A stretch of 45,401 nucleotides of DNA. Source: Alphaproteobacteria bacterium (GTDB taxonomy: Bacteria > Pseudomonadota > Alphaproteobacteria > RF32 > CAG-239). The stretch spans positions 96,713-142,113 of the forward strand of contig JAEEMQ010000009.1 of the NCBI GenBank assembly GCA_016283295.1. Reading direction: 5' to 3'. Below, piece after piece: positions 1,789 through 41,234 of the stretch; position 1 is the first letter of the stretch, and the number at the start of each line of letters is the position of its first letter. Made by a program: the position numbers and the translations under genes. Below the pieces are notes generated by a model. It did not search any database. It had not been told where the DNA came from and worked only from the letters and a program-made list of their open reading frames with translations.

Positions 1789-3246
1789 TCAATCGCAAAT
1801 TCTCTCCTGTGATTTGATTTCCACGGTATAATTGAGGGTTTTCTTGCTGTCACGGTCAACCGGAACCTTCCATTGGCGGACGGTGGCGTTTTTCTCCTCA
1901 CTCTTGATGCTTTCCTTAACGATTTTATAGTCTTCCGGAAAATGCTGGCTCAAAATCACGGTATTGTTTTCGCTTTCGGCATTGTTGACCGTAACTTCCA
2001 CTTCATAAGTTTTGAGCAACTTTATGTTATAGCACAAACGGTTCGGCTGGCGGTCGATTTCTCTTTCTTTGGCCTTGCTTATTTTGCCTTTGACGGAGAT
2101 ATTGAACGCATCGCCCAAATGCAGACGCAGAGTGTCTTCTTTGGCGGTATGGTTTATGTTATCCGAGCCGATAAACTGCAAATTGCCGCTTTTATCGTTT
2201 TCATAAAAACGCACGGTACCGGCCGGCAACGAAATTCCCAAATGCGAATCGGCATTATTTTCAACTACATAAGTAATTGACGGGTGCAGCTTTTCAAACT
2301 CGTTGTTGTCGTCGCCGAAATAAAAAGGCGTGCGCAGGTTAAATTCTTTCAAGTATTTGACATCGTGCTTTTCAATTAAGGCGATTTGTTTGGTTTGCTT
2401 ATCCTTAATCGTAGTCATATTTGGCAGCGTATACAGTTCGTAACTGTTGATGCTTTCCGGCTCGATATTGACGGCTTCGTTCGTATCGTAAGCGGCCATC
2501 GCCACCATACCCTTGGCCATGTTGAACGAGCGCGCCATCATCGGACGTACGATATTGACGTCGCCGGCTATCAGCTGGATTTTGGCTTGGTTATAATCGA
2601 TGCCGGACTCGTTGTTGATGGTAACCCAACCGGTTAAGTCAAGCGAATCTTTGGAGCGAACATTGGCTACATAATCGGTTTTCCAGCTCAGGCCGCCGGT
2701 TAAGTATGCCAAATACAGATTTTTCTCGCCGCCCTGTTTAGCATTGAGTTTGGCGGCTAAGGTCGGTTGGTTGCTCATTCCGGCCGGGATGTTGTTGAAG
2801 ACGACGCGTCCCGGGAAGTCGGAATCGATACCGTAATCAAATTCCAGAATCGGGCGTCCGCCGGCTTCACCGATTAAGGTAGCCGTTTCGTAGATATTGT
2901 CGCCGGTGGTCGGATTTATGCGGACAGTTTTGACCTTTTTGCCGACGAATTGCTTGATGAAGTTATCGTAAGACATCAGATTATAGCTGTAATTTTGTTC
3001 CGTAACTTCAATGCCGTCGCCGTAAATAATCGCGGTTTCCGCCTGAATGCGGCTGGCAACGCCGTCAAAAACTATTTCGTTGTTGCCGGATTGGATGGCG
3101 GCCGGTCTGATATCTTTGACCAGAGCCAGATTTTTGTTGTATATGCTCAAAGACAGAGAGTTGTCCTGATTTTTTAAGAGCAAAGGTTCGGCCTGAGCGG
3201 CACCGGAAAGAGCCGTACATAACAAAAACAATAAACCGTAACGCAT
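1789..3246 (-). CDS. DUF4139 domain-containing exported protein
   Basis: A 485-residue protein with a clear Sec signal peptide (MRYGLLFLLCTALSGAAQA, cleavage after AQA). The mature protein is beta-rich and matches the DUF4139 / mucoidy-inhibitor MuiA-like type: an N-terminal region (LSLSIYNKNLALVKDIRPA), a central part around GGLSWKTDYVANV and GWVTINNESGIDYNQAKIQLIAGDVN, and a C-terminal domain (VEVTVNNAESENNTVILSQHFPEDYKI). The biochemical function of this family is not established; periplasmic location is inferred. It follows the DUF1294 gene after 11 bp with its own AGGAGA site, so the pair forms an operon. The terminal KSQERIC is unusual in ending near a lone Cys. Confidence 0.8.
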   Translation of the reverse strand: MRYGLLFLLCTALSGAAQAEPLLLKNQDNSLSLSIYNKNLALVKDIRPAAIQSGNNEIVFDGVASRIQAETAIIYGDGIEVTEQNYSYNLMSYDNFIKQFVGKKVKTVRINPTTGDNIYETATLIGEAGGRPILEFDYGIDSDFPGRVVFNNIPAGMSNQPTLAAKLNAKQGGEKNLYLAYLTGGLSWKTDYVANVRSKDSLDLTGWVTINNESGIDYNQAKIQLIAGDVNIVRPMMARSFNMAKGMVAMAAYDTNEAVNIEPESINSYELYTLPNMTTIKDKQTKQIALIEKHDVKYLKEFNLRTPFYFGDDNNEFEKLHPSITYVVENNADSHLGISLPAGTVRFYENDKSGNLQFIGSDNINHTAKEDTLRLHLGDAFNISVKGKISKAKEREIDRQPNRLCYNIKLLKTYEVEVTVNNAESENNTVILSQHFPEDYKIVKESIKSEEKNATVRQWKVPVDRDSKKTLNYTVEIKSQERICD

Positions 3247-3257
3247 ATTTATCTCCT

Positions 3258-3707
3258 CTAAAAATTGATAAATCCCAAGTATTTCAAAATAATATAAACG
3301 GCGGCAAGTTGCAAAACAAGCATCAGCCAGAACATTATGCGGAAACTTTTCTTTTTGGTTTTATGGCGAAACACTTTTTGCGCAATATAGGCTCCGAGCC
3401 AACCGCCCAAGAATTCGAGAGCATGCAAGTGCGCTTCCGGAATTCGCCACGAACCGTTGACCGCAGCACGCTTATCCGCACCGTAGGCCAAAAATGTTGC
3501 CGCATTTATACAAATCAGATGATAAACTATAAAGATTAAAAAAACCTTATGCGAAAAAGCGGGAAGACGAAAATAATACGTCTCCGTTGCATAAGCCGCC
3601 AAGACCATCGCCGCATAATACAAAACAAAGAAAATATTACGTTGCAGCGGGCGGATTAAAATTAAAAAAGGTGTCATAATCGCTAAAAACGTTATCAACA
3701 TTTTCAT
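3258..3707 (-). CDS. DUF1294 family inner-membrane protein
   Basis: A 149-residue, very hydrophobic protein with about four transmembrane helices. It carries the DUF1294 signature in its second half: YGADKRAA, then WRIPEAHLHALEFLGGWLGAYIAQKVFRHKTKKKSF. In other members this conserved block lies at the membrane boundary; function is unknown. The family version here has an extra N-terminal pair of hydrophobic helices. A GGAGA site lies just upstream of the ATG. It is first in a two-gene operon with the DUF4139 protein. Confidence 0.8.
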   Translation of the reverse strand: MKMLITFLAIMTPFLILIRPLQRNIFFVLYYAAMVLAAYATETYYFRLPAFSHKVFLIFIVYHLICINAATFLAYGADKRAAVNGSWRIPEAHLHALEFLGGWLGAYIAQKVFRHKTKKKSFRIMFWLMLVLQLAAVYIILKYLGFINF

Positions 3708-8706: not shown

Positions 8707-9735
8707 CTAGTCTTCGTCGCCCATAGGTTCGTCTTCGCCAATCATCTCGGTCGTTAAATGGCCGGCATCGGCGCGGATTTTCTTTTCAATTTCATCGGCA
8801 ATTTGCGGATTCTGCTTTAAGAAATTCTTGGCATTTTCGCGGCCTTGACCGATTTTTTCGCCGTTGTAGGAGAACCAGGCACCGGATTTTTCGATAATGC
8901 CGGATTTTACGCCCAAATCGATAAGCTCGCCGGTTTTGGAAATGCCTTCGCCATACATAATGTCGAAGTCGACGGTTTTGAACGGCGGCGCAACCTTGTT
9001 TTTAACGATTTTAACGCGGGTTTGCGAGCCTATAACATCGTCTTTGTCCTTGATGGCGCCGATACGGCGAATATCAATACGCACCGAAGCGTAGAACTTA
9101 AGCGCGTTACCGCCGGTGGTGGTTTCCGGATTACCGAACATAACCCCGATTTTCATACGAATCTGGTTGATGAAGATAATCAAAGTGTTAGAGCGGGCAA
9201 CGGTGGCAGTCAATTTGCGCAAAGCCTGACTCATCAAACGAGCTTGCAAGCCCATGTGCGAATCGCCCATCTCGCCCTCGAGCTCGGCCTTCGGTACCAA
9301 AGCGGCAACCGAATCGACCACCATAACGTCAATGGCGCCGGAACGCACCAATGTGTCGGCAATTTCAAGAGCCTGTTCGCCGGAATCCGGTTGCGAAACC
9401 AACAAATTCTCGACATCTACGCCGATTTTTTTGGCATACGACGGGTCGAGCGCGTGCTCGGCATCAATAAAAGCACAAGTGCCGCCGTTTTTTTGGGCTT
9501 GCGCAATTACGCTCAAAGCCAAAGTGGTTTTACCCGAACTTTCCGGACCGTAAATTTCCACGATACGGCCTTTCGGCATACCGCCGATACCGAGGGCGAT
9601 ATCAATCCCCAGTGAGCCGGTGGAAATCGCTTCAATGTCAATGTTGGTGTCTTGCCCCAAACGCATAATCGAACCCTTACCGAAGGCACGCTCGATTTGG
9701 CTTAAGGCGGCGTCTAACGCTTTATCTTTTTCCAT
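8707..9735 (-). CDS. recA: Recombinase A
   Basis: A 342-residue RecA, the DNA-dependent ATPase for homologous recombination and the co-protease that triggers LexA self-cleavage. Visible features are the N-terminal polymerisation helix ([23 protein letters not shown]), Walker A GPESSGKT at 63-70, Walker B ([12 protein letters not shown]), loop L1 region ([23 protein letters not shown]) and loop L2 ([29 protein letters not shown]). The C-terminus is acidic ([10 protein letters not shown]), which in RecA moderates DNA binding. Length is normal for the family. AAGGAT precedes the ATG. An alphaproteobacterial LexA box lies about 100 bp upstream, so it is SOS-inducible. Confidence 0.98.
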
Positions 9736-9827
9736 ATTTTTATCCTTATAAATAAGTTATTCTGACAATATTTATGATGTATTTTTTGCAAAAACTCAAA
9801 CAAAGAATACATTTATCCGCTAAATTG

Positions 9828-9857
9828 TATATTGTTCTGATTTTGTTCTTTTTGCAA
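9828..9857 (-). promoter_or_regulatory. recA promoter with alphaproteobacterial LexA (SOS) box
   Basis: GTTC-TGATTTT-GTTC at 9834-9848 (GAAC-N7-GAAC on the recA strand) matches the direct-repeat SOS box known from Alphaproteobacteria. On the recA strand it fills the 18-bp spacer between a -35 TTGCAA (9857-9852) and a -10 AATATA (9833-9828), so LexA bound there would block RNA polymerase. The promoter elements are inferred; the box is seen directly. Confidence 0.85.
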
Positions 9858-9928: not shown

Positions 9929-9956
9929 TTGACTTTGGACAAAATTATGTTATTTT
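9929..9956 (+). promoter_or_regulatory. Promoter for the first barrel gene
   Basis: TTGACT, 16 bp, TATTTT, about 45 bp upstream of the ATG at 10003. The -35 is near consensus and the -10 is moderate. Confidence 0.45.
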
Positions 9957-10002
9957 AAAGATAATCAATCACTATTATGACTATTATCAAAATCCCAAGC
10001 GT

Positions 10003-10566
10003 ATGAAAAAGTATATTATTGCGCTTATGGCGCTGGTGTGTTCGTCTGTTTATGCAGGTGACGGTTTTTATGTCGGCGCAGGTGCTGCGTATCAGATTGT
10101 CCCCCTGTTGGACGGTACGACCAATTGCTCATTTGCTCCGGCCGCCGAAGTCGGTTACAACTACGGCAGTTTCGGTATCGGGATCACGGGCTCCTTTAAC
10201 AAGGATATCATGCTCTCGGCTGACGTCAACAGCAAATTTATGTTGACTGAGGAGTTCGGTGTTATCTTCGGTTGCGGTTACGGCGCAGTTCATCGCACAA
10301 CCGAGTGCCATGTCGAAGGCTGCGACTACAAAGTCAGCGGCTTTATCGGCTGGCCGCATGTTAACGTGGGTGTCGAGGTTCCATTTACCGATAATCTGGG
10401 TTTACATCTGGTAGGTGTGATCGGCTACAGTCGCGATAAGTATGACGACTACGGTTACAGCCATAATTACGGCAACTACGACTTCGCTACTCACTCCTAC
10501 TACCGCAGTTACGACGGATGGTGCTTTACCTCGCAGGTGCGCGCTTCGCTTGTTTGGAGTTTCTGA
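10003..10566 (+). CDS. Outer-membrane beta-barrel protein (paralogue 1)
   Basis: The ATG at 10003 gives a proper signal peptide (MKKYIIALMALVCSSVYA, then GDGFYVG), whereas the longer track start adds an unlikely basic leader. The mature 170-residue protein shows alternating Gly/aromatic strands (FYVGAGAAYQ, VGYNYGSFGIGITGSF, IFGCGYGAVH) and ends in Phe (VRASLVWSF), as expected for a BAM-inserted small OmpA/OmpW-like barrel. The next gene is a clear paralogue. No Shine-Dalgarno sequence is visible in the AT-rich leader, unlike most neighbours, and codons favour AAC, TAC and ATC. It has its own promoter and terminator, so is monocistronic. Ligand or function unknown. Confidence 0.8.
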   Translation: MKKYIIALMALVCSSVYAGDGFYVGAGAAYQIVPLLDGTTNCSFAPAAEVGYNYGSFGIGITGSFNKDIMLSADVNSKFMLTEEFGVIFGCGYGAVHRTTECHVEGCDYKVSGFIGWPHVNVGVEVPFTDNLGLHLVGVIGYSRDKYDDYGYSHNYGNYDFATHSYYRSYDGWCFTSQVRASLVWSF

Positions 10567-10573
10567 AATTAAG

Positions 10574-10610
10574 ACCTCCCTCGGGTAATTCCGACGGAGG
10601 TTCTTTTTTT
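10574..10610 (+). terminator. Intrinsic terminator after barrel gene 1
   Basis: ACCTCC...GGAGGT outer stem with an inner TCG/CGA pairing, followed by TTCTTTTTTT. Confidence 0.9.
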
Positions 10611-10632
10611 GGGCGGTGGGGCAAAATAATTG

Positions 10633-10660
10633 TTGTGTTTTGTCGAAATCGTTGTATACT
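10633..10660 (+). promoter_or_regulatory. Promoter for the second barrel gene
   Basis: TTGTGT, 16 bp, TATACT, about 25 bp upstream of the ATG at 10686. The -10 is strong and the -35 weak. Confidence 0.45.
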
Positions 10661-10685
10661 GAAGCAAATCAAATATTATTTGTAT

Positions 10686-11234
10686 ATGAGAAAGGTTGTA
10701 TTATTCCTCTTGCTGTGTGTTGCCGCAACGGCTCACGCACAGGTTGATTTGGGCTCCGACGTCAGGCTTTTTGCCGGTGCCGGACTATCCTATCAGAACG
10801 GTAAATTTTCGAGCTCAGCCGATTTTGACGAGCCGGGATTTATGTTTGAATTCGGTGCCGTTTACAAGCAGTGTGTAGAGATGAACGTTGATTTTTCTCT
10901 GGCAAAGAATTCTGTGATGTCCATCGACATTAACGGACGCACCCCGCTGTATGGTACCGTGAAACTGCTCTACGGAGCCGGCTACGGCTTTGTTTATTAT
11001 GACGGCGTGGCGTATGATGTTGTGACTGCCGACGGCGAAGTTACCCAGGTTACGCAATGCGGAAGTATGGCGTGGCCGCATGCCAATGTCGGCATTTGCT
11101 ACCCCATCAACGACAATATGGAAATGCGTGTTGTGGGCGCGGCCGGCTATTCCGAGAAAGTCTGGCATGCCGAAGATGAAAGCAGCTGGCACTTTACCTC
11201 GCAAGTCAGAGCTTCCGTGGTATGGAATTTTTGA
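10686..11234 (+). CDS. Outer-membrane beta-barrel protein (paralogue 2)
   Basis: The start at 10686 gives MRKVVLFLLLCVAATAHA, a clean signal peptide cleaved before QVDLG; the track's 10518 start runs through the preceding terminator. The 182-residue product is paralogous to the upstream barrel. Both share YGAGYG/GCGYGA, WPHANVGICYPINDNMEMRVVGAAGYS against WPHVNVGVEVPFTDNLGLHLVGVIGYS, and the last strand FTSQVRAS(V/L)VW(N/S)F. The C-terminal Phe supports outer-membrane insertion. As with its partner, there is no visible ribosome binding site before the ATG. A tandem duplication with diverged surface loops is the simplest explanation. Confidence 0.8.
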   Translation: MRKVVLFLLLCVAATAHAQVDLGSDVRLFAGAGLSYQNGKFSSSADFDEPGFMFEFGAVYKQCVEMNVDFSLAKNSVMSIDINGRTPLYGTVKLLYGAGYGFVYYDGVAYDVVTADGEVTQVTQCGSMAWPHANVGICYPINDNMEMRVVGAAGYSEKVWHAEDESSWHFTSQVRASVVWNF

Positions 11235-11247
11235 AAAGAACATGATT

Positions 11248-11288
11248 AAAGAACCTTTGCCGATTGATTTCGGTAAGGTTCTTTTTTT
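11248..11288 (+). terminator. Intrinsic terminator after barrel gene 2
   Basis: AAAGAACCTT / AAGGTTCTTT stem, extended inside by CCGA/TCGG with one bulge, followed by a T run. Confidence 0.9.
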
Positions 11289-11361
11289 ATGTTGTAAACA
11301 TATATGCGGTCTATCTTGACAAGCCCGAAATAATAACCTATGTTAGCGCCAAAGAAAGGAT

Positions 11362-12408
11362 ATGAAAATGGATATAGTATTAACCGGAGACAGACCTACG
11401 GGGCGTTTGCATTTGGGGCATTATGTCGGCTCGCTCAAACGCCGGGTTGAATTGCAAAATAATAATCAGCCGAAAGAAATGTATGTGATGATTGCCGATG
11501 CGCAGGCATTGTCGGATAACTTTGACAATGTGGAAAAAGTACGCAGCAATATATCCGAAGTGGCGCTCGATTATTTAGCCTGCGGGCTTGACCCGGCCAA
11601 AACGACGATTTTTATTCAATCGCAAATCTCGGAATTGTGTGAACTGTCGTTTTATTATATGAATCTGGTTACGGTGGCGCGTTTGCAACGCAATCCGACG
11701 GTAAAAAGCGAAATTCAGCTGCGCGGATTTAAGCAGAGTATTCCGGTGGGTTTCTTTACGTATCCGATTAGTCAGGCCGCCGATATTACGGCATTTAAGG
11801 CCAATATTGTGCCGGTGGGCGAAGACCAGCTGCCGATGATTGAACAAACCAGAGAAATCGTGCGCTCGTTCAATACATTGTATAAAGAGGTGCTGGTGGA
11901 GCCGAAAGCGGTTCTGCCGGAAAACGAAACCTGTTTGCGTTTGCCGGGGTTGGACGGTGCCAACAAAATGAGTAAATCGCTCGGCAACTGCATTTATTTG
12001 GCAGATTCCGCCGATGAAATTCAGCGCAAAATCAAAAGTATGTTTACCGACCCGACGCATTTAAGGGTGGAAGACCCGGGACATACCGAAAATAATCCGG
12101 TGTTTGTATATTTGGATGCATTTTGCCGCGATGAACATTTTGCCGCCTTGTGGCCGGAATATCAAAATCTGGAAGAATTGAAAGCGCACTATCGCCGCGG
12201 CGGTTTGGGTGACACTAAGGTTAAAAAGTTCCTCAACGAGATTATTCAGGAAGAAATCCGGCCGATTCGCGAACGGCGCGAAGAATTAGCCAAAGATTTG
12301 GGTTATATTTTCGATATGCTCAAAAAAGGCAGCGAGCATGCACGAAAAAAGGCGGCTCAGACCACTGATGAAGTCAAAACCGCCATGGGGATTAATTACT
12401 ATAAATAA
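11362..12408 (+). CDS. trpS: Tryptophanyl-tRNA synthetase
   Basis: A 348-residue class I aminoacyl-tRNA synthetase that charges tRNA-Trp. The class I signatures are both present: the HIGH motif as HLGH at about residues 17-20 ([18 protein letters not shown]) and KMSKS at 202-206 ([11 protein letters not shown]). The catalytic fold includes the region [17 protein letters not shown]. The start could be ATG 11362 or ATG 11368; the AAAGGA site is only a few nt from the first and better spaced for the second. The gene stands alone, after the terminator of the barrel gene and convergent with the next gene. Confidence 0.96.
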
Positions 12409-12414
12409 GCCCGA

Positions 12415-13254
12415 TTATTTTTTGATGAATTTATCTTTGTAAGCCTTTACTACCGACAGGAAATCTATCGGCTCCGACGGGCGGAAGAAGCTCTTGGTTT
12501 TTGCATCGGCGTGGCAGAGCTTGTTGCTGTGCGGCACGGCGTAATCTTTGCTGATTTTTCCCATCGGTCCGCGTAAGCTGAGTGCAAACACCGGCCCGGT
12601 TTCCGGATGCTCGGAATGAATATCCGAACCGTCGGTATATTTGGCGCAAGTCAGCGAGAACTTAAAATCGCGGCGGATGGCATCCATAATCTCGGAACTC
12701 TCAATCAACTTGGCTTGTTCTTCCGGGGATGACGGTGTCATACCGATGAGGTCCATCGCACCATAGCCCTTGGAATGCAGGCCGTTGGCATCAAATTCAT
12801 AAGCCGTGGCCAATGTTTCAACACGATGGGTCGTGATTTCCGGCAACGGTTGATCCTGAACCTTTTTCCGCAGTTTGTGGGCCACAACCGTATTCGGGCG
12901 ATAATCATAAATTTCCAGACGGAACGTAACTTTACCCCAATCAGACGATGAATAGGAATTTTTCTCGTCGGCTACCGGATAACACATATAAAGCATAGCC
13001 TCTCTGGCCGGAGTTTGCTCAGGGTTACGCGAATCTTTTTCCGCGGCATAGCCGATTTTAATCCAGCGAAACTTATTACCTCCTTTGACGGCCACTTTGG
13101 CTTTTTCGCGTAATGCCCGCAATTTTTCCGCAGGGTCGTGTTCGGCGGACGGGAAGGTCTTTTTATTGTCTGCCTCGGATTCCAGCGGTTGCTCCTTCGG
13201 CAACAATGTTTCGCGTTGGATGGTTAATTTGCGCGGTTCTCTGACTTTATACAT
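12415..13254 (-). CDS. Hypothetical protein
   Basis: I choose the ATG at 13254 (MYKVREPRKLTIQRE), which has AAAGGA about 11 nt upstream; the longer 13296 start has no site. The 279-residue protein has no signal peptide or transmembrane helix. A charged N-terminal third (KLRALREKAKVAVKGGNKFRW) leads into a likely globular domain (TFRLEIYDYRPNTVVAHKLRKKV, YEFDANGLHSKGYGAMDLIGM, FALSLRGPMGKISKDYAVPHSNKL). The C-terminus is Lys-rich. I recognise no family. It converges on trpS with a 6-bp gap, and no intrinsic terminator separates them. Confidence 0.7.
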   Translation of the reverse strand: MYKVREPRKLTIQRETLLPKEQPLESEADNKKTFPSAEHDPAEKLRALREKAKVAVKGGNKFRWIKIGYAAEKDSRNPEQTPAREAMLYMCYPVADEKNSYSSSDWGKVTFRLEIYDYRPNTVVAHKLRKKVQDQPLPEITTHRVETLATAYEFDANGLHSKGYGAMDLIGMTPSSPEEQAKLIESSEIMDAIRRDFKFSLTCAKYTDGSDIHSEHPETGPVFALSLRGPMGKISKDYAVPHSNKLCHADAKTKSFFRPSEPIDFLSVVKAYKDKFIKK

Positions 13255-13345
13255 CTGAAAAATTCCTTTCATCAAAACTTTATCAAGATATAACATTTTT
13301 TTGGTTATTTGTCAAATAATTTTATTTGAGAAAGTTAAATTGTGC

Positions 13346-13395: not shown

Positions 13396-14208
13396 ATGCT
13401 TAAATTAGCCACGGAATTGCTTTATTTACAGTATAATCAATGTATGGAAGTTGTGAAAGACGACTCTTTTTACAGCTATTATGCCGAGGAAAAAATCCGC
13501 CATTCGATGCAGGTGGCGGGAGCCGGAAATTATTTGTTGCGTCATATCGAGTGGTTTAAGGATAAATCGGAGGAATATCTCGAAATGGTGCGCACGGCGA
13601 TTTTATTACATGATGTTTGCCGTTTTTCCGAAATCGCCGCGCTTTATCACGGTATTAAGCAATATGACCACGGGATTGCCGCTTATGAACTTTTGCAAAA
13701 TACTCCGTTGTTTGAAGATATACGCATTTGCCTGCCGATAAAACATCACGGTCATCTGATTGAGGATTTTTACGCCGATGCCGAATATCAGAATTTGCCG
13801 GACGACGTGAAAAAGGAAGTAGAGCAAATATGCTTTGTGGTACGCGATGCCGATAAAATTGCCAACTTCAATATGCTGGCGCATGAGCCGTATTTTTTGC
13901 CGCTGTTTATGGATATCAAACGCGAGATTACCGAGGAGGATTTGCAAATTTCGGAGCATATTTTGCAAAGTGCCGAGAAGGGGAGTACGGTACCGAAGCC
14001 GTTTTATACTTTGGGCGACCGCGTGGCTTCGCTGCTGTCGTGGTTTGTTGACATCAATTATCGGGCGGCTCTGGATTATTGTGATAAACTGGGGACTACG
14101 GAATGGATTTTTCATACGTTTGAAAAATATTGCGGTAATCAGGAATTTAAGCAAAAATATGTCGCTTTTGTGCGGGATTTTATGAAAAATCATAAATATT
14201 TGCAATAA
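13396..14208 (+). CDS. HD-domain phosphohydrolase
   Basis: A 270-residue cytosolic protein with the metal-binding HD superfamily pattern: His36 (KIRHSMQVAGAGNYLLRHI), the doublet His72-Asp73 (ILLHDVCRFSEI), further histidines in IKHHGHLIEDF, and a distal Asp in VVRDADKIANF. The layout H...HD...H...D is that of nucleotide or phosphoester hydrolases, and the RDADKIANF ending is typical of HD proteins adjacent to (p)ppGpp- or dNTP-type enzymes. The substrate cannot be read from the sequence. AAGGAG precedes the ATG. It is monocistronic and convergent with pyrG across a shared terminator. Confidence 0.8.
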   Translation: MLKLATELLYLQYNQCMEVVKDDSFYSYYAEEKIRHSMQVAGAGNYLLRHIEWFKDKSEEYLEMVRTAILLHDVCRFSEIAALYHGIKQYDHGIAAYELLQNTPLFEDIRICLPIKHHGHLIEDFYADAEYQNLPDDVKKEVEQICFVVRDADKIANFNMLAHEPYFLPLFMDIKREITEEDLQISEHILQSAEKGSTVPKPFYTLGDRVASLLSWFVDINYRAALDYCDKLGTTEWIFHTFEKYCGNQEFKQKYVAFVRDFMKNHKYLQ

Positions 14209-33039: not shown

Positions 33040-33750
33040 ATGCCATACGATTCTCAAGGTAATTTTTACAGAATACATAATTGGGAGCAAGATCGCCTGG
33101 ACGATATAGAAATCGTCAGCGATCGTCATGATGAAGAAGATGATAATTTTGCGGAAGGTTTAAGCCAGTGTGTGTTGCGCGACGGACGGGCCGCGCTTAC
33201 CGATAATATGAATGCCGGAAATAACCGGATTCAAAATTTAAAAGCCGGTGCGGCCTCAACCGATGCGGTTAATAAATCGCAGATGGACAGCGCGATAAGT
33301 TCGGCAAATTCGACAATTACGACCGCTTATCAAAACTATGTTAAAACGGTGCTTGGTACGATATATCCGGTCGGTTCGGTGTATATCGGTACGCAAAACA
33401 CCTGCCCGATGGCGAGCTTGATTTCCGGTTCGACCTGGACGCTGGTATCTTCCGGTAAAGCATTGTGGACGGGTACGGGCTCAAACGGCAACACGACAAT
33501 AAATGCCGGTTTGCCGAATATTACCGGTGCATTCAATCATCAATGCTTCATGAACTGGGGTACGGGCACCGAAAGCGGAGCGTTATATACCGGCAGCGGC
33601 GGTAGCAGTACGCAAAACGCCGGCGGTTCGGATGGCGGCAATACGCAGACAATCGCCTTTGACGCTTCAAAATCTAACAGTATTTACGGTAACAGCACGA
33701 CGGTACAACCGCCGGCGTATGTGGTTAACGTTTGGCGCAGAACGGCATAA
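33040..33750 (+). CDS. Phage tail fibre protein, short
   Basis: A 236-residue protein with AGGAGG upstream. The N-terminal part (to about residue 85) contains a collagen-fibre-like attachment segment common in fibres: ALTDNMNAGNNRIQNLKAGAASTDAVNKSQMDSAI. The C-terminal domain begins TIYPVGSVYIGTQNTCPMASLISGSTWTLVSSGKALWTG and ends SIYGNSTTVQPPAYVVNVWRRTA, the pattern of baseplate-wedge/tail-collar-type receptor-binding domains; the middle is Gly/Ser/Thr/Asn-rich. A perfect TATAAT lies at 33013-33018 in the short spacer before it, but no matching -35 is visible. Probably one of two host-recognition proteins. Confidence 0.75.
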   Translation: MPYDSQGNFYRIHNWEQDRLDDIEIVSDRHDEEDDNFAEGLSQCVLRDGRAALTDNMNAGNNRIQNLKAGAASTDAVNKSQMDSAISSANSTITTAYQNYVKTVLGTIYPVGSVYIGTQNTCPMASLISGSTWTLVSSGKALWTGTGSNGNTTINAGLPNITGAFNHQCFMNWGTGTESGALYTGSGGSSTQNAGGSDGGNTQTIAFDASKSNSIYGNSTTVQPPAYVVNVWRRTA

Positions 33751-33761
33751 AGGAGGTAATT

Positions 33762-34115
33762 ATGAGCGGAACAATACAAAACAATCTAATCACGGTGCGG
33801 CAGGGCGACAGCTTTACTTTGGACCTTTTGATAAAAGAACGGGGACAACCTCTGAATTTGAGCGGTGCCGGTATTTTGATGCAGGTGCGGGAAAAAGACG
33901 GAGGCAATTTGCTGTTTGAAATCAGCGGTACGGCGGTCGATGCGGCAAACGGCAAAATGGCGCTGGTGATAACACCGACACAAACAAGCAACACCGTCGG
34001 CGATTATGCGTGTGATATTCAACTGACGACGGCGGGCGGCGACGTGCATACGATTTGGCCGGCCAACGTCAACCAAATCGGCACATTCAGAATTACGGAG
34101 CAGGTGACACAATGA
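33762..34115 (+). CDS. BppU-N-like Ig-fold fibre accessory protein
   Basis: The start at 33762 follows AAAGGAGGT exactly; the track start at 33732 overlaps the previous gene. The 117-residue protein is all-beta: VRQGDSFTLDLLIKERGQPLNLSGAGILMQVREKDGGNLLFEISG, then ALVITPTQTSNTVGDYACDIQLTTAGGDVHTIWPANVNQIGTFRITEQ. This is the pattern of the BppU N-terminal / DUF2479-like immunoglobulin domain found in phage baseplate and fibre proteins. It overlaps the next fibre gene by ATGA, so it probably helps assemble or attach that fibre. Confidence 0.7.
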   Translation: MSGTIQNNLITVRQGDSFTLDLLIKERGQPLNLSGAGILMQVREKDGGNLLFEISGTAVDAANGKMALVITPTQTSNTVGDYACDIQLTTAGGDVHTIWPANVNQIGTFRITEQVTQ

Positions 34116-35620
34116 TAGAGATTGAAGAAAAAGCGGTGCCGGTTATTGTTGATATCGGCGGCGGTGAGATAACGGCCAATATCAGCACCGGCAACAAAAT
34201 AGAAGTATCGTCGGGAAGCATTGTTCGCATGGATATTTCAACGGCGGTGCACTACATAAAATCCGGAAGCGCGGAAATCGCGGCGGCAGTTCGAGAAGGA
34301 ACTGCCGTTTTTGATTCGAACGTGCAAAATAAGCTGGCGGCATATAACCAAAACGCAAGCGATAAAACTCAAGAATTCAACGCCAACGCGGTTGATAAAA
34401 CCGCGTTGATTGAAGCTGAGGTAAATGCGGCACGTGATTGGGCAACCAAAGTCGACGGTCCGGTGGACGGTGAGGAATATTCGGCCAAATATTATGCCGG
34501 GCAGGCGGAGCTCATCGTGGCCGACGCGGCTGACAAAGATTTAAGCAACTTATCGGCGACCGGCGAGGCAAAATTTGCGGCAAAGCAAGATGTGATTGCC
34601 GATTTGGCGGACATCAGAAGCGGTGCGGCTGCGGGAGCGACGGCAGTGCAACCCGCTGATTTGTCGGTTTATGCTTTGAGTGCGGATTTGGCGACGGTGG
34701 CAACATCGGGGGCATACTCAGATTTATCGGGTAAACCGACAATACCGAGCGACACAAATGATTTGACCAACGGTGCGGGGTATATTACCTCGGCGGCGCT
34801 GTCCGGTTATGCCGCGGACAACGCCGTGGTGCATTTGGCGGGTACGGAAACAATAACCGGTGCCAAGACGTTTACCTATAACCCGACAATTCAGAGAAAC
34901 AGACCGCTTTTATTTATGAATGATAATTGGTGCACAAGAGGAACTTCCCCATCCAGCGCTCAATATCAAGCCGTTTGGTTTGGAGATACGGGCGGAAATA
35001 CAATGGGAGGAATGATAACTTTGTATAATACGGACGGAATGGTTGATACCGCATTAAGAGCATACAAAGGGGCATCAGCAGAATCTTATATTGAAGTGCG
35101 TTTGATGCATCCACTCAGCGGAAGTCCTACATTTATACCGACAAATGATAACAGTTATAATCTCGGAAGCTCAAGTAAGCGTTGGAAACAGCTTTTTGCC
35201 GGTACAACCACGATTGCGACTTCGGATGAGCGGTTAAAGCAAGGTATTGAAAGCGTGCCGGATACGGTTTTGGACGCATGGGGCGAAGTGGAGTTTTATC
35301 GTTATAAATTCAATGACGCGGTAGAAGAAAAAGGCTTTGCGGCGGCACGGTATCATACCGGAGTTGTGGCGCAGCGGATTATGCGGGTTTTTGCCGAACA
35401 CGGGCTGAATGCTTTTGACTACGGCTTGCTTTGTTATGACGAATGGGAAGCTAAGGCGGCGGACGTTGACGAGTCCGGCAAAATTATTCGACCGGCACAA
35501 GAGGCGGGCAATCGGTATGCGGTGCGCTATGAAGAATGCCTGTGTATGGAAGCGGCATATCAACGGCGCAGAGCCGAGCGGATTGAGGCGCGCTTGGCGG
35601 CGTTGGAAGCGAGGCTGTGA
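34112..35620 (+). CDS. Tail fibre with C-terminal S74 chaperone domain
   Basis: A 502-residue fibre starting at ATG 34112, translationally coupled by ATGA. Order: N-terminal beta domain (MIEIEEKAVPVIVDIGGGEITANIS), a helical Ala-rich shaft (about 55-130), a region with YSDLSGKPTIPSDTNDLTNGAGYITSAALSGYA typical of fibres, a receptor-binding beta region, then the endosialidase-type intramolecular chaperone (S74). The autoproteolysis site is TSDERLKQGI with Ser371, so about 131 residues would be released after trimerisation. The end is a coiled coil (RRRAERIEARLAALEARL). It is the main host-recognition candidate. Confidence 0.85.
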   Translation: MIEIEEKAVPVIVDIGGGEITANISTGNKIEVSSGSIVRMDISTAVHYIKSGSAEIAAAVREGTAVFDSNVQNKLAAYNQNASDKTQEFNANAVDKTALIEAEVNAARDWATKVDGPVDGEEYSAKYYAGQAELIVADAADKDLSNLSATGEAKFAAKQDVIADLADIRSGAAAGATAVQPADLSVYALSADLATVATSGAYSDLSGKPTIPSDTNDLTNGAGYITSAALSGYAADNAVVHLAGTETITGAKTFTYNPTIQRNRPLLFMNDNWCTRGTSPSSAQYQAVWFGDTGGNTMGGMITLYNTDGMVDTALRAYKGASAESYIEVRLMHPLSGSPTFIPTNDNSYNLGSSSKRWKQLFAGTTTIATSDERLKQGIESVPDTVLDAWGEVEFYRYKFNDAVEEKGFAAARYHTGVVAQRIMRVFAEHGLNAFDYGLLCYDEWEAKAADVDESGKIIRPAQEAGNRYAVRYEECLCMEAAYQRRRAERIEARLAALEARL

Positions 35621-36294
35621 TGGATATTTTGTATTACATCGGGCGCGGCTCGCACCATCAAAACCGCGAGTTGCGTTATAGCCTGCGGGCGCTGGAAAAA
35701 CATTGCAAAGATATTGATAATGTTTGGATTGTCGGCAACAAACCGCCGTTTTTGAACGACAAAGTTAAGTATTTGTGGGTTGAGGACGACGGTGCGTGGT
35801 GGCAAAACGCCTATCGTAAAACCATGGCGGCGATTAGGGCCGGAATCAGCGAGGATTTTTTGCTGATGAACGACGACTTTTATATGCTTAAGGATTTTAC
35901 GGCGGCAAAATATCCGTATTATCACAAGGGGGATATAGCCGATACGGCCAAAAACAAGTATCAGGAAGTCATTATCAATACACGGCGGATTTTGGAAAAA
36001 CTCGGCAAGCCCTTCAAACATTACGGGGTGCATTGTCCGATGCGGATTAATGCCGAAAAATATAAACAGTTGGCACGATTTTACGACGGAGAATTTCATA
36101 ATCAGCCGGTTTCGGCCAGGTGCTTGTACGGCAATTTGTTTTGTCGCGGTCGGCAGGTAAAAGATTGCAAAAGCGCTACAATCGTCACCAGCGTTACCGG
36201 ATGTTGGTCATCTCAGGAGTGGGCCGGAGCCGCGTTGAACGAGCTGCAAAAATTATATCCGCAGCCGAGCAAATGGGAAATTGCCGATGAATGA
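35620..36294 (+). CDS. Stealth-like sugar-phosphate transferase
   Basis: Start ATG 35620 overlaps the fibre stop by one base (TGATG); a GTG at 35617 is less likely. The 224-residue product has no membrane segment. MDILYYIGRGSHHQNRELRYSLRALEKHCKDIDNVWIVGNKPPFL and ISEDFLLMNDDFYMLKDF match the conserved regions of Stealth-type capsular polysaccharide phosphotransferases, including the acidic NDD. The longer bacterial proteins have extra domains absent here. It could modify host surface glycans or decorate the fibre; coupling to the fibre gene supports a surface-related role (inference). It also resembles uncharacterised phage glycosyltransferase-type proteins. Confidence 0.7.
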   Translation: MDILYYIGRGSHHQNRELRYSLRALEKHCKDIDNVWIVGNKPPFLNDKVKYLWVEDDGAWWQNAYRKTMAAIRAGISEDFLLMNDDFYMLKDFTAAKYPYYHKGDIADTAKNKYQEVIINTRRILEKLGKPFKHYGVHCPMRINAEKYKQLARFYDGEFHNQPVSARCLYGNLFCRGRQVKDCKSATIVTSVTGCWSSQEWAGAALNELQKLYPQPSKWEIADE

Positions 36295-36315
36295 ATATAG
36301 CGACGGGAGGTAAAA

Positions 36316-36543
36316 ATGGATTGGTTGCAATTTTTACAAATAATCTGTGTGCCGGCCTTTGGCTGGCTTTTTTATAAGCTGGGCGAAACTCGCAAGGAGC
36401 TGAACGATTTTAAGGTGGAAATGGCCAAAGAAGCCAAAAATTATGCCACCAACGAGGCGATTTTGCGGGTGGAAAATAAACTCGACGATTTGCGCAGTTT
36501 GATTATCGAAGAAATCAAAAAAACAACCAAAAGGAGGGTGTAA
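36316..36543 (+). CDS. Holin-like small membrane protein
   Basis: A 75-residue protein with one N-terminal membrane helix (WLQFLQIICVPAFGWLFYKLG) and a charged coiled coil (ELNDFKVEMAKEAKNYATNEAILRVENKLDDLRSLIIEEIKK). GGGAGG precedes the ATG. The stop overlaps the start of the endolysin gene (TAATG). Size, topology and position point to a holin or a holin-associated protein; the long coiled coil is also found in hemolysin XhlA-like phage proteins, a good alternative. Confidence 0.65.
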   Translation: MDWLQFLQIICVPAFGWLFYKLGETRKELNDFKVEMAKEAKNYATNEAILRVENKLDDLRSLIIEEIKKTTKRRV

Positions 36544-36965
36544 TGTCTGATTTGGATATTTTGGCGCGAACGATTTACGGCGAGGCGCGCGGTGAGGGAC
36601 GCGAAGGTATGGAGGCGGTGGCGTGCGTTGTGATGAACCGCTATCGCTCACATAAGTGGTACTGCGGATATACCTGGATGAACGGGATGAAGGTGCCGAG
36701 TGTGGCACAGACCTGTCTTAAGCATTATCAATTCAGCTGTTGGAACAAAAATGACCCCAACCTGGATAAACTGTTGAAGGTAACGGCCAGAAATAAGCAA
36801 TTCCGGGAGTGTCTGCTGGTGGCGCAAAAGGCGCTTTCGGGAGAGCTGCAGGATTTTACCGGCGGTGCAACGCATTATCATACCAAGGATATAAAACCGT
36901 ATTGGGCCAAGGATAAAACTCCGTGCTTTGCGCTCGGTAATCATATTTTTTATAAGGAGAACTGA
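36543..36965 (+). CDS. SleB-like cell wall hydrolase (endolysin)
   Basis: A 140-residue peptidoglycan hydrolase of the SleB/Hydrolase_2 type. The catalytic Glu lies in LARTIYGEARGEGREGMEAVACVVMNR, and the rest of the domain is present (TCLKHYQFSCWNKNDPN, GGATHYHTKDIKPYWAKDKTPCFALGNHIFYK). There is no signal peptide, so it needs a holin to reach the periplasm. It acts as a lytic transglycosylase-like enzyme in relatives. It sits between two small membrane proteins and just before the spanin pair, completing the lysis cassette. Confidence 0.88.
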   Translation: MSDLDILARTIYGEARGEGREGMEAVACVVMNRYRSHKWYCGYTWMNGMKVPSVAQTCLKHYQFSCWNKNDPNLDKLLKVTARNKQFRECLLVAQKALSGELQDFTGGATHYHTKDIKPYWAKDKTPCFALGNHIFYKEN

Positions 36966-36966
36966 G

Positions 36967-37125
36967 ATGGGAAAGCAGAAGCGTTATCAATTTTGGCGCT
37001 GGCTGATTTTGAGCATCGTGCGCATAAAAAAACTCTATACTCTGACCTGGGGTATCGTGATTTTATTGATAATCGTCTGTTTGAAAACCGATTTGGTGCG
37101 GTTGCTCGGGAGTTTGCTGCCATGA
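36967..37125 (+). CDS. Small single-span membrane protein of the lysis cassette
   Basis: The start at 36967 follows AAGGAGAACTGAG; the track's 36928 start is inside the endolysin gene. The 52-residue protein has a basic N-terminus (MGKQKRYQFWRW) and one long hydrophobic segment (LYTLTWGIVILLIIVCL). Its stop overlaps the Rz start (ATGA). It could be the true holin or an antiholin; with the 75-aa protein upstream it may form a two-component system. Confidence 0.6.
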   Translation: MGKQKRYQFWRWLILSIVRIKKLYTLTWGIVILLIIVCLKTDLVRLLGSLLP

Positions 37126-37328
37126 AAATGATCTTGCTGGCGTGCGGGGCCGTGGTGTTATCGGCGTACGGCGGCTATTTATATGGCAAAAGCCAGGCAA
37201 AAACGCAGATAATCGAAAAGCAAACGGAGGTAATAAAGTATGTGGCGCAAAAACGGGCGAAAATTCAGGCTCAGCCCAATGCTTCTCGCGCTGAGTTGCT
37301 TGAACTCATGCGCAAGGGTGAATTGTGA
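37122..37328 (+). CDS. i-spanin (Rz-like)
   Basis: The ATG at 37122 overlaps the upstream stop. The 68-residue protein has an N-terminal signal anchor (MILLACGAVVLSAYGGYLYG), then a coiled coil (KSQAKTQIIEKQTEVIKYVAQKRAKIQ) and the ending NASRAELLELMRKGEL, a common end of alphaproteobacterial phage Rz proteins. The i-spanin bridges the inner membrane to the lipoprotein partner and disrupts the outer membrane in the last step of lysis. The o-spanin gene is nested in its 3' half in another frame, the typical Rz/Rz1 layout. Confidence 0.78.
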   Translation: MKMILLACGAVVLSAYGGYLYGKSQAKTQIIEKQTEVIKYVAQKRAKIQAQPNASRAELLELMRKGEL

Positions 37329-37467
37329 GCCGGTGAATTTGCCGCAGTTTCCGCACGCCGGCGCTAAGGTGGCGGCCGAAGCGGAAAATTTGAGCGCGGA
37401 AGAATTTCCCAATATGTGGGAGTGGTTCGCGCGCCTCAATAAACTGCGGCAGGAATTGGAAAACTAA
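37240..37467 (+). CDS. o-spanin lipoprotein (Rz1-like)
   Basis: A 75-residue product in the +1 frame, starting inside the Rz-like gene and overlapping it by 89 bp. MWRKNGRKFRLSPMLLALSCLNSC gives a basic, hydrophobic signal with a lipobox-like end (LNSC, or less likely ALSC). The mature part is Pro-containing (EPVNLPQFPHAGAKVAAEAENL) and ends FPNMWEWFARLNKLRQELEN, similar to other phage Rz1-like proteins. The lipobox is not ideal, so acylation is probable, not certain. Confidence 0.75.
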   Translation: MWRKNGRKFRLSPMLLALSCLNSCARVNCEPVNLPQFPHAGAKVAAEAENLSAEEFPNMWEWFARLNKLRQELEN

Positions 37468-37485
37468 AAAAACAGAGGAGGCAAA

Positions 37486-37761
37486 ATGGCAAAAAAGAAA
37501 ACGGCGGCGTATTCGTTTGCCGAAAGCTTTACAATGTTGAACAAACTGCAGCAGATGGCGATTGACGAAGGCAATATCAGTTTGGCGCTCAAGGCCGAGG
37601 AACTGAAATGCAAAATCGCCGCGCTGCAGGCAGATAAGGAAAGTAATTTATCAAACGAAAACTTAACCGGTATTTTGGTGGATTTTATCAATGAAGAACA
37701 AAGTAATAGTAAAGATTCCGCAGATATTTGCGCCGCTGATACGGCAAAAGAAAAGGTATAA
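37486..37761 (+). CDS. Terminase small subunit-like protein
   Basis: A 91-residue helical protein with GAGGAGG upstream. Residues 10-50 form a likely helical hairpin (ESFTMLNKLQQMAIDEGNISLALKAEELKCKIAALQAD), and the C-terminus is polar. It immediately precedes and overlaps TerL by 71 bp, the normal site for TerS, which recognises the packaging site and forms a ring. It is shorter than most TerS proteins and has no visible helix-turn-helix, so the call rests mainly on position. Confidence 0.65.
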   Translation: MAKKKTAAYSFAESFTMLNKLQQMAIDEGNISLALKAEELKCKIAALQADKESNLSNENLTGILVDFINEEQSNSKDSADICAADTAKEKV

Positions 37762-39016
37762 ACTTTATTACGGCGGCAGAGCCGGCGGCAAGAGTTATGC
37801 CTTTGCCGACAGCTTGTTGCTTTTGGGACGGATGAAAAAGTTGCGGATAGCGTGTATGCGCGAGATTCAAGACAGTATTAAGGACTCGGTGCATAAGCTG
37901 TTGAGCGATCGTATTTGCTTTTATAACCTTACCGATTATAAGGTTACGGAAACGCAGATTGTCAACAAAATCACGGGTACGAGCTTTATCTTCAAGGGCT
38001 TGCAGGAGCACAATGCCGGCAATATCAAATCGCTGGAGGGAGTGGATATCGTATGGCTGGAAGAAGCACAGAAAATCAGCAAAAAAAGCTGGGAGATTCT
38101 GGACCCGACCATTCGTAAAGCCGGCTCGGAAATTTGGATTTCGATGAATCGCGAAGAAGAAAACGACCCGGTGTGGAAGGCGGTGGCGGCTAATCCGGAT
38201 GAGCGTACGCTGGTGGTTAAAGTCAACTATACCGATAACCCCTTTTGCCCGGAAGAAATGAAATATCTGGCGGAGAAATGCCGGTGCGAGAGCCCCGATG
38301 ACTATGCGCATATCTGGCTCGGGGCGCCGGTTGCCGCGGGCAGTCACAAGCTTATCGGCTATAACGCGGTGCACAAAGCAACGCAGACGCAGCTGATGAA
38401 CTCGTCCTCGCCGCTGATTATCGGAATAGACGTGGCACGTTTCGGCGATGATAAAACTGTTTTTTGTTTCAGAAAAGGGCGGTTGTGCACGGAGTTTAAA
38501 AGCTTTGCCGGTCTGGATAATGTGGCGGTGGCCAATCAGGCAACGCACTATATCCGCGACTATAAGCCAGCGCGGGTGTTTGTGGATGCCGGCGGCGTCG
38601 GCGGCGGAGTGATTGATATTTTGCATGACCGCGGTTTTAAGAAAATCGTGCGGGCGGTGATGTTCGGCTCCAAAGCCTTGAATGATGAGCGCTATCATAA
38701 TCGGCGCGCGGAAATGTGGGACGAGCTGCGGCAGTGGCTCGCCTCTGAGCCGGCGGTTAAGATTCCGGATAACGAGAATTTGTGTGCGGAATTGTGTGCC
38801 GTCAACAAAAAATACGACAGCCGCGGTCGTTTGCAACTCGAGGAAAAAGACGAGATAAAAAAGCGGCTGGGGCGTTCGCCGGATATGGCGGATGCGTTGG
38901 CGCTGACGTTTGCCGAGCCGGTTTACGATAACGGTACCGAAGAATATGCCGGTTTCAAGGAAAACAGCATTGAGAGCCTGTTTCGGGCCAATGTAAAGAA
39001 AAACAATTCGTGGTAA
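37691..39016 (+). CDS. Terminase large subunit
   Basis: A 441-residue DNA-packaging motor of the PBSX/phage_terminase_3 type. The N-terminal ATPase has Walker A GGRAGGKS at 28-35 and Walker B VDIVWLEEA. The C-terminal RNase H-like nuclease has its first acidic residue at Asp247 (IIGIDVARFGDD), a second in VFVDAGGVGGG, and the last in SPDMADALALTF. All motor and nuclease residues look intact, so packaging should be functional. No ribosome binding site is seen before the ATG within TerS, which implies coupled translation. Its type resembles headful-packaging phages (inference). Confidence 0.93.
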   Translation: MKNKVIVKIPQIFAPLIRQKKRYKLYYGGRAGGKSYAFADSLLLLGRMKKLRIACMREIQDSIKDSVHKLLSDRICFYNLTDYKVTETQIVNKITGTSFIFKGLQEHNAGNIKSLEGVDIVWLEEAQKISKKSWEILDPTIRKAGSEIWISMNREEENDPVWKAVAANPDERTLVVKVNYTDNPFCPEEMKYLAEKCRCESPDDYAHIWLGAPVAAGSHKLIGYNAVHKATQTQLMNSSSPLIIGIDVARFGDDKTVFCFRKGRLCTEFKSFAGLDNVAVANQATHYIRDYKPARVFVDAGGVGGGVIDILHDRGFKKIVRAVMFGSKALNDERYHNRRAEMWDELRQWLASEPAVKIPDNENLCAELCAVNKKYDSRGRLQLEEKDEIKKRLGRSPDMADALALTFAEPVYDNGTEEYAGFKENSIESLFRANVKKNNSW

Positions 39017-39049
39017 GGACTTATAATGCCAAATAAAGGAGTAAAAACA

Positions 39050-39277
39050 ATGACTTATATTGCAAAACAATTCGCGGAGGAGGTCGTTCTTCCGGACGGA
39101 TCTGTCGCATCGTCGGTCGCCGATGTCGATAAGTATTTACGCACAAGCGGAATGGCGCGTGCCAGCGACTATTCGCCCGAGTATATCAAAAATATTCGGG
39201 CAAAAAACGAGAAACAGCGGCAAGAAGAACTTTTTGCCGATTTTTTATACAATTACAAAAGGATGATATGGAAATGA
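39050..39277 (+). CDS. Small phage protein between TerL and scaffold
   Basis: The start at 39050 has AAAGGAG at a good distance; ATG 39026 lies before that site. The 75-residue protein (MTYIAKQFAEEVVLPDGSVASSVADVDKYLRTSGMARASDYSPEYIKNIRAKNEKQRQEEL) is soluble and helical with a C-terminal coiled coil. It overlaps the scaffold gene by 10 bp. Position suggests a role in head assembly or portal/terminase contact, but no family is recognised. Confidence 0.65.
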   Translation: MTYIAKQFAEEVVLPDGSVASSVADVDKYLRTSGMARASDYSPEYIKNIRAKNEKQRQEELFADFLYNYKRMIWK

Positions 39278-40146
39278 GTGAATTAAGAGATGTTATTGAA
39301 CGTCAGTTCAAGGCGCACGGGCTGTTGTCCGACGCCGAAAACGAAAAAGCTCCGAAGGATATTCCGGCGGCCGAAACCAACGAAGATATTTCCGAGGTTG
39401 CGATACCGCCGGGGTATCCGGAAGAATTTGCGTCCGAATTTAAGAACCTGCCGCCCAAATGGCAGGATTTTTTATGCGAACGCGAAGCCGAAAATAAGCA
39501 GAAAATCGCTGAATACAGCGCCAAGCTCGATGCTTATAACTTTGTGGAAACCTTGTTCGGCAATCGCCGCGACCGGCTGGCCGCCAAGGGGGTCGAAACC
39601 CTCGGTCAATGGTTGCAGGGATTGGCGTGGCTGGATGGGGCGATGGATGAAAATCCGGCCGCAACTCTGGCTGCGGTTGCCACGGTTTACGGCGTTGATT
39701 TGCGGGCGGCGCGACAAAAGCAGGCGGAAATAAATCCGGCGATTATGGCGCGGGTGTGCAAGCTTGAGCGCAGTTATAACGATTTGACCGCTTATCTTCG
39801 GGAAATGCAAAATCGCAATTTTGACGGCACTTTAAATGCGTTTGGTCGGCAAACCGACCGCGAGGGTAATTTGTTGCACCCTCATTTTGAAGATGTAAAG
39901 CAATGTATTTGCGATTTGCTCAAATCCGGCGCGGTTGCGGATATCGAAGAAGCGTATCAGAGCGCTTTGTGGCTCAATCCGTCGGTAAGGCAGGAATTGG
40001 TGCAAAAACACATCGATTCTGAAGCAAAGGCGGCCGAAAAGGCACAAAAAGCCGCCTTTACGATTAAGGGTAAGGCCGAAAAGCCCGAGCGTGAGTTGAC
40101 CTTGCGGGAAACCATCGCCAAAAATATGGCAAAATATGTGGATTAA
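39268..40146 (+). CDS. Phage scaffolding protein
   Basis: A 292-residue soluble, acidic, mostly helical protein directly upstream of the major capsid gene. Start ATG 39268 or 39274. Conserved-looking parts are IPPGYPEEFASEFKNLPPKWQDFLCEREAENKQKI, MDENPAATLAAVATVYGVDL, and HPHFEDVKQCICDLLKSGAVADIEEAYQSALWLNPSVRQELV, all common in scaffolds of proteobacterial podovirus-like phages. The C-terminus is highly basic (KAAFTIKGKAEKPERELTLRETIAKNMAKYVD), as needed to bind the coat protein. Function inferred from position and composition. Confidence 0.8.
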   Translation: MEMSELRDVIERQFKAHGLLSDAENEKAPKDIPAAETNEDISEVAIPPGYPEEFASEFKNLPPKWQDFLCEREAENKQKIAEYSAKLDAYNFVETLFGNRRDRLAAKGVETLGQWLQGLAWLDGAMDENPAATLAAVATVYGVDLRAARQKQAEINPAIMARVCKLERSYNDLTAYLREMQNRNFDGTLNAFGRQTDREGNLLHPHFEDVKQCICDLLKSGAVADIEEAYQSALWLNPSVRQELVQKHIDSEAKAAEKAQKAAFTIKGKAEKPERELTLRETIAKNMAKYVD

Positions 40147-40168
40147 TTTTTGAGAAAAGGAAAAAAAT

Positions 40169-41155
40169 ATGACTTTACAATACAATGATATGCTGACTCA
40201 TACGCTTGAGGAACGCACCGGTACGCTGCATGATAATATGTCAAAAAACAGCGCGGTACTCAATCGTTTGAAACAAAAAGGAAAAATGAAGCAGATTTCC
40301 GGCGGTACCAAGATTTTGGAAGAGCTGGAATACGGCGAAGGCGATATGATTTGGTATTCGGGCTACGATACCATTGCCTATCAGCAAAAGCAGTTGTTTA
40401 CGGCGGCGGAATATGCGCTGAAACTCTGCGCGGTGCCGGTTGCGATTTCTGGCGAGGAACTCTTGATGAACAGCGGCTCCGAGCAGGTTATGGACTTGTT
40501 TGAAAAGCGCGTTGACAATGCCGAAAAAACGCTGATTAAGAAAATGTCGGCGGCGGTTTACGGCGACGGTACCGGTTCTTCCGGCAAAGAAATCGGCGGC
40601 TTGGCGCTTTTGGTGGCCGATGACCCGACTACCGGAACCGTCGGTGCCATCAACCGTGCCGAAGTCGGTAACGAATTTTGGCGCAACCAGGTGGCAAGTG
40701 CCGAAATTACCAAGGACAACATTTTGCAAAAAATGAACGAGCTGTATTTGAAATGCTCGCGCGGCAGCGATAAGCCGGATTTGATCGTCGGGGATGATTC
40801 GCTGTATACGCTCTATGATTTGACCTTGATGGATTTGCAACGCTTCTCCAACCCGAATGTGGCCGAGGGCGGCTTCATCAGCCTCAAATTTAAGGGCGCC
40901 GACGTGATTTATGACGGCGGACAGGGCGGTAATTGTCCGACAAACCACATGTATTTTCTGAACACCGATTACATCTATCTGCGCACACATCGTGACCGTG
41001 ATATGACGGTTATCGGCGGCGACAGAACGGCCGTCAATCAGGATGCGCTCTATCGTATTATCGGCTGGGCCGGCAATATGACCATGAGCAACGCGGCATT
41101 GCAAGGCGTTTTGATTAATACGGCAACTTCCGGCAGTGATTCTGCAAGCAGCTAG
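40169..41155 (+). CDS. Major capsid protein
   Basis: A 328-residue protein with AAAGGA upstream. The N-terminal arm is helical (MTLQYNDMLTHTLEERTGTLHDNMSKNSAVLNRLKQKGK), followed by an E-loop-like segment (ISGGTKILEELEYGEGDMIWYSGYD). The helical spine comes next (LFEKRVDNAEKTLIKKMSAAVYGDGTG) and the A-domain-like C-terminal part (ILQKMNELYLKCSRGSDKPDLIVGDDSLYTLYDLTLMDLQRFSNPN). This is the HK97-fold layout. Placement between the scaffold and a stable hairpin fits the most abundant virion protein. It is the likeliest client of the phage GroES. Confidence 0.88.
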   Translation: MTLQYNDMLTHTLEERTGTLHDNMSKNSAVLNRLKQKGKMKQISGGTKILEELEYGEGDMIWYSGYDTIAYQQKQLFTAAEYALKLCAVPVAISGEELLMNSGSEQVMDLFEKRVDNAEKTLIKKMSAAVYGDGTGSSGKEIGGLALLVADDPTTGTVGAINRAEVGNEFWRNQVASAEITKDNILQKMNELYLKCSRGSDKPDLIVGDDSLYTLYDLTLMDLQRFSNPNVAEGGFISLKFKGADVIYDGGQGGNCPTNHMYFLNTDYIYLRTHRDRDMTVIGGDRTAVNQDALYRIIGWAGNMTMSNAALQGVLINTATSGSDSASS

Positions 41156-41172
41156 ACGTTGTGAGCTTTGAG

Positions 41173-41199: not shown

Positions 41200-41234
41200 C
41201 CGTTTTGGTTAAATATGTAACGGAGAAATAAGAA

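Follow-up and report, generated by a model that had tools for sequence, protein, structure and literature searches.

Exchange of genes between related bacteria is usual for surface proteins. In the exchanged surface alleles of Yersinia ruckeri OmpA/OmpF (PMC7876001), the history of the gene is at odds with that of its housekeeping neighbors, and the loops are variable. Among small outer-membrane proteins, NspA, the OmpA transmembrane domain and OmpX-Ail (PDB 1p4t, 1qjp and 1qj9) share a signal peptide, eight strands, long variable exposed loops and a C-terminal Phe.

The window analyzed here is a stretch of 45,401 nucleotides (positions 96713–142113 of contig 23) from a 1.65 Mb alphaproteobacterial genome, referred to as G000. 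The gap between recA and trpS holds two ORFs, OMP1 and OMP2 (Table 1). The pair is real and lineage-restricted, shows signs of either horizontal exchange or the sorting of duplicates, and is not a new kind of system. OMP1 and OMP2 resemble NspA, OmpA and OmpX-Ail in having a signal peptide, eight strands (here predicted), long variable loops and a C-terminal Phe, although the identity is just 10–17% in structural alignments and a sequence search of the PDB returned no match for the family. As in the Yersinia alleles, the gene history conflicts with that of the neighbors and the loops vary; here, however, synonymous saturation extends over the whole gene, and two species alone are available for comparison.

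Two Diverged Barrel Genes and Their Distribution

OMP1 and OMP2 are diverged homologs that align with 27% identity over 210 columns (E = 3e-18). A WPH(A/V)NVG block and an FTSQVRAS(V/L)VW(S/N)F end are common to both, with gaps elsewhere in the alignment, which bears out the two related barrel ORFs described at this place in the initial annotation.

Table 1. Features of the barrel locus and its neighbors; positions refer to the window unless another genome is named.
Feature	Positions	Strand	Description
recA	8707–9735	−	Left border of the putative inserted block; 98.8% identical to G023 recA
SOS-like box of recA, GTTC-N7-GTTC	9834–9848	−	Pattern match; about one expected by chance in the window
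Candidate sigma-70 promoter of OMP1	9929–9965	+	TTGACT at 9929, or TGGACA-18-GATAAT at 9936–9965
OMP1 leader	9966–10002	+	A/T-rich, without SD; no unusual folding (z +0.5)
OMP1	10003–10566	+	187 aa; signal peptide and predicted 8-strand outer-membrane barrel, C-terminal Phe
OMP1 intrinsic terminator	10571–10607	+	Hairpin of −18.7 kcal/mol (z −3.4), then T run
OMP2 −10-like TATACT and SD-less leader	10655–10685 (TATACT 10655–10660)	+	No good −35
OMP2	10686–11234	+	182 aa; paralogous signal peptide and predicted 8-strand barrel
OMP2 intrinsic terminator	11248–11289	+	Hairpin of −21.7 kcal/mol (z −6.9), T run
trpS	11362–12408	+	In the putative inserted block; also 3′ of the barrel in G023 (95% identical)
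Gene between trpS and HD gene	12415–13296	−	Absent at the corresponding site of G023; no Pfam hit
HD-domain gene	13396–14208	+	Right border; directly adjoins recA in most congeners
G023 barrel copy	G023:C8:2746–3297 (or 2746–3300)		52–56% identical to OMP1

A search of 25 congeners with OMP1 recovered a counterpart (56%) in G023 alone, the closest sequenced relative and sister of G000; the other 24 lack the barrel. G023 has one copy, no second one was found there, and OMP2 is left without an ortholog of its own. A profile built from the three barrels matched G000 and G023 alone among 152 genomes of the taxonomic family and detected no relative in 399 phylum genomes. The sole extra match in 385 class genomes, in G877, was judged marginal (E = 5e-4; 98 positions within a 381-aa frame); the class and phylum samples together comprised ~780 genomes. 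The phage, plasmid and viral-contig collections likewise yielded no barrel relative, and neither these nor the family, class and phylum genomes contained a donor sequence for the barrel genes.

Predicted Fold and Likely Function

AlphaFold predicted eight antiparallel strands for each protein (pLDDT of 74 for OMP1 and 73 for OMP2), from a shallow three-sequence alignment, and of the five models for each protein the majority were of low quality. The best structural matches of the OMP1 model in the PDB were NspA (1p4t) and OmpA (E = 2e-6). The N-termini follow an M-K/R-hydrophobic pattern with a signal-peptidase-like site, and OMP1, OMP2 and the G023 copy end in VWSF, VWNF and VWTF, respectively. 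The predictions thus give the features of the fold class: eight antiparallel strands, a signal peptide and a C-terminal aromatic residue (the beta-signal). Against PF13505 (OMP_b-brl), OMP2 scored 18.4 bits and the G023 copy 20.1 bits, below the cut-off of 28.7, and OMP1 had no match; PHROGs and NCBIfam searches gave nothing convincing for the barrel proteins. OMP1 and OMP2 may be described as predicted NspA/OmpA-type barrels with variable surface loops, and the fold class would place them at the outer surface. Their function could lie in surface contact, surface variation, or evasion of phage or host recognition.

OMP1 and the G023 copy have two loop features in common that OMP2 lacks. The predicted third loop carries a CxxxxC pair (OMP1 residues ~101–106), and the fourth loop is long and rich in Tyr, Asp and His (OMP1 residues ~145–172).

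A Block between recA and the HD-Domain Gene

In most congeners with enough contig, the HD-domain gene begins ~200 bases upstream of recA. The gene order is recA-barrel-trpS-HD in G023 and recA-OMP1-OMP2-trpS-(12415–13296)-HD in G000. Because recA adjoins the HD gene in most congeners, the barrel(s) and trpS can be read as a lineage-specific insertion between the two. The left edge of the block is sharp: G000 and G023 are near-identical over ~118 bases of recA leader reaching as far as the SOS-like box, and divergence sets in just beyond. The recA leader (9736–9850) also contains a near-palindromic block of the ATACATTTATCCGCT(G/A)AAATGTAT type and ACTCAAACAAAG, kept in nearly all congeners; together with the SOS-like box, this conserved block is possibly a regulatory leader.

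Two very different types of trpS (~32% identity) alternate among the congeners. The type found in the block is present in 47 of 128 family genomes and in 9 of 16 genera, and those other congeners that were examined carry it at different loci. Since this type is widespread in the taxonomic family but located elsewhere in congeners, the trpS of the block probably came from within the family.

Further along the window, a prophage-like run (~33040–45187) encodes a baseplate/stalk protein, a tail-fiber protein with a Peptidase_S74 chaperone domain, a cell-wall hydrolase and a terminase large subunit.

Synonymous Divergence Exceeds That of the Neighbors

Protein identity between G000 and G023 is 75–99% for the neighboring orthologs, as compared to 52–56% for the barrel. 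At fourfold sites of identical residues, OMP1 and the G023 copy differ in 33 of 50 cases (66%), against 402 of 1158 pooled over seven neighboring genes (22–42% each; Fisher P = 1.4e-5). Two-fold sites behave in the same way, with 50% differing in the barrel and 23% in the neighbors (P = 3e-4). The GC3 values of OMP1 and the G023 copy, 0.60 and 0.41, form the biggest gap among the genes compared. Because their fourfold differences lie so far above the range of the neighbors, OMP1 and the G023 copy are, on the evidence of these sites, not plain vertical orthologs. The barrel copies look older than both the surrounding genomes and the speciation that separated G000 from G023, a pattern explained either by allele exchange with other lineages or by the sorting of old duplicates. 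The possible transfer raised in the initial annotation gains support from this excess over the seven neighbors, along with the lineage-specific insertion and the lack of the family in 24 of 25 congeners and in nearly every other genome searched.

A vertical ortholog whose exposed loops evolve fast under host or phage pressure, with neither transfer nor paralogy, would explain why the gene occupies the same locus in both genomes. It also fits the distribution of identity, which covers 66 of 117 predicted strand positions and 24 of 52 positions in loops and turns, with a loop 4 of different length. We consider this history improbable: synonymous change has reached saturation when compared with the neighbors, which amino-acid selection alone does not produce, and overall dN (0.31) is well below dS (2.6).

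Old tandem duplication deserves more weight. Here, an ancestor would have had at least two barrel copies, of which G000 and G023 kept different ones, and no transfer is needed. The tandem pair in G000 agrees with such a history, and so does the similar fourfold saturation of OMP1 versus OMP2 (21 of 31 sites, 68%) and of OMP1 versus the G023 copy. Sorting by loss would indeed give equal synonymous saturation, which counts against the exchange reading, as does the fact that only two genomes carry the family. However, no remnant of a second copy came to light in G023, and its barrel is clearly nearer to OMP1 (54% identity, dN 0.31) than to OMP2 (35%, dN 0.75), so that this history requires the loss of a further copy; the family is also missing from the other 24 congeners. 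On balance, we regard a history of duplication and loss as rather unlikely, though it is a serious alternative to exchange.

Promoters, Terminators and Leaders

The initial annotation assigned each gene its own promoter and terminator. Intrinsic terminators follow both genes, whereas the promoter part of the claim held fairly well for OMP1 and weakly for OMP2. The OMP1 candidate agrees with a sigma-70-like consensus at 10 of 12 positions, and the site before the G023 copy, TTGACA-17-TAGAAT, is better still (11/12). Upstream of OMP2, no site reached 9/12 and the TATACT alone is visible. Promoter-consensus matches in the region hardly exceed those in shuffled sequences (5 versus a mean of 3.4).

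No Shine-Dalgarno (SD) sequence precedes any of the three family members: duplex energies with the anti-SD ACCUCCUUU are +0.7, +2.2 and +0.4 kcal/mol for OMP1, OMP2 and the G023 copy, in agreement with the original observation that neither gene has a visible ribosome binding site. The OMP1 and OMP2 leaders are not unusually folded, and an Rfam scan of the barrel locus found no element. A 9-codon upstream ORF (MTIIKIPSV, 9977–10006) has its TGA overlapping the OMP1 start as ATGA. Translational coupling through this ORF was rejected, as it is not conserved in the G023 leader.

Genome-wide, 53% of 219 genes from an SD-blind gene caller have an SD duplex of ≤ −4 kcal/mol, compared with 27% of shuffled leaders. 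Since this caller put some starts wrong (OMP2, for example, at 10842), the statistics were redone on 37 genes with signal peptides, where start positions are more reliable: 62% have such a duplex and ~38% lack a strong SD. These shares lie fairly near the published alphaproteobacterial average of 47% of genes with SD (PMC10783764). The statement that the pair is unlike most host genes was thus too strong. The contrast is sharper against the resident small barrels whose own scores exceed the PF13505 cut-off; these resemble OMP1 and OMP2 in size, signal peptide, terminal aromatic residue and overall barrel, but differ from them in Pfam score and in being SD-led in all six cases (−5.2 to −8.5). 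The comparison of 0/3 with 6/6 gives a Fisher P = 0.012, a value that overstates independence since the three family members are related. Because all six of these resident barrels are SD-led and none of the family is, SD-independence looks like a trait of the barrel family.

Codon Usage and the Question of High Expression

Codon usage was compared with simulations that encode the same protein from genome or ribosomal-protein codon tables; with ~185 codons per gene, the outcome of such tests can be swayed by the unusual Tyr/Asp/Gly-rich make-up of these proteins. OMP1 fits neither table (P < 0.0005 each). OMP2 rejects the ribosomal-protein table and departs mildly from the genome table (P = 0.026). 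By a CAI-type index, the two genes lie at the 14th–20th percentile, while the resident barrels are at 0.70–0.82. The log-ratio of ribosomal-protein to genome codons ranks them differently, with OMP1 at the 85th and OMP2 at the 64th percentile.

The initial annotation had offered, as one option, that the genes are simply highly expressed with a different initiation mode. Small barrels are often abundant, and OMP1 leans slightly to ribosomal-protein codons in the log-ratio. Very high expression is nevertheless not supported and rather disfavored, because neither gene resembles ribosomal-protein genes in codon usage; the low CAI-type rank relative to the resident barrels and the SD-led starts of the latter speak against it too. 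Orthologs in all close relatives combined with a ribosomal-protein-like codon bias, the pattern named in advance as favoring native high expression, were not found, since only one of 25 congeners carries the barrel. As an explanation, a native origin with very high expression is therefore hardly plausible.

A Bacteroidota-Like Donor

A donor of Bacteroidota type, whose genes kept SD-independent leaders, had been suggested on one basis, the missing SD. All three family leaders do lack it, and Bacteroidia are generally SD-independent (PMC9976891, PMC10783764). Their start context, however, has A at −3, −6, −12 and −13 without a nearby AUG (PMC9976891); OMP1, OMP2 and the G023 copy have adenines at 3, 1 and 3 of these four positions, and an AUG lies upstream at 9977 within the OMP1 leader. 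The promoters resemble a sigma-70 consensus, clearly so in G023, and the plasmid, phage and viral collections contain no match. SD-less genes are also common in the host itself, forming a large minority of starts in the G000 genome, and for this reason a missing SD, taken by itself, says little in favor of a foreign donor for genes of this group. Across the promoters, leaders and collections covered here, the proposal found no support, and we judge such a donor very improbable.

Discussion

Taken together, the locus is most likely a lineage-specific surface-barrel locus whose alleles were swapped among related Alphaproteobacteria, or one in which old duplicates were sorted. In the fuller account that we favor with moderate confidence, OMP1 and OMP2 would be old paralogs within a barrel(s)-plus-trpS block inserted between recA and the HD gene in the G000/G023 lineage. 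Their sequences would have been exchanged with, or horizontally acquired from, related, unsampled Alphaproteobacteria; the case for such a transfer is built from divergence and distribution. Transcription would proceed from the cell's own sigma-70 promoters, and translation may start independently of an SD, assisted by S1, on the A/T-rich leaders.

A bolder proposal, which we find unlikely, is that the recA-trpS gap acts as an exchange slot. An SD-less barrel cassette, in which each gene has its terminator and OMP1 its promoter, would be replaced as a unit between species, and SD-independence would be a retained property distinguishing the cassette from the SD-led barrels resident in the genome.

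For the organism, the barrel offers a clear case of a surface gene that appears to be older than the genes flanking it, and the poorly studied small-genome Alphaproteobacteria gain with it a lineage-restricted family of small barrels.
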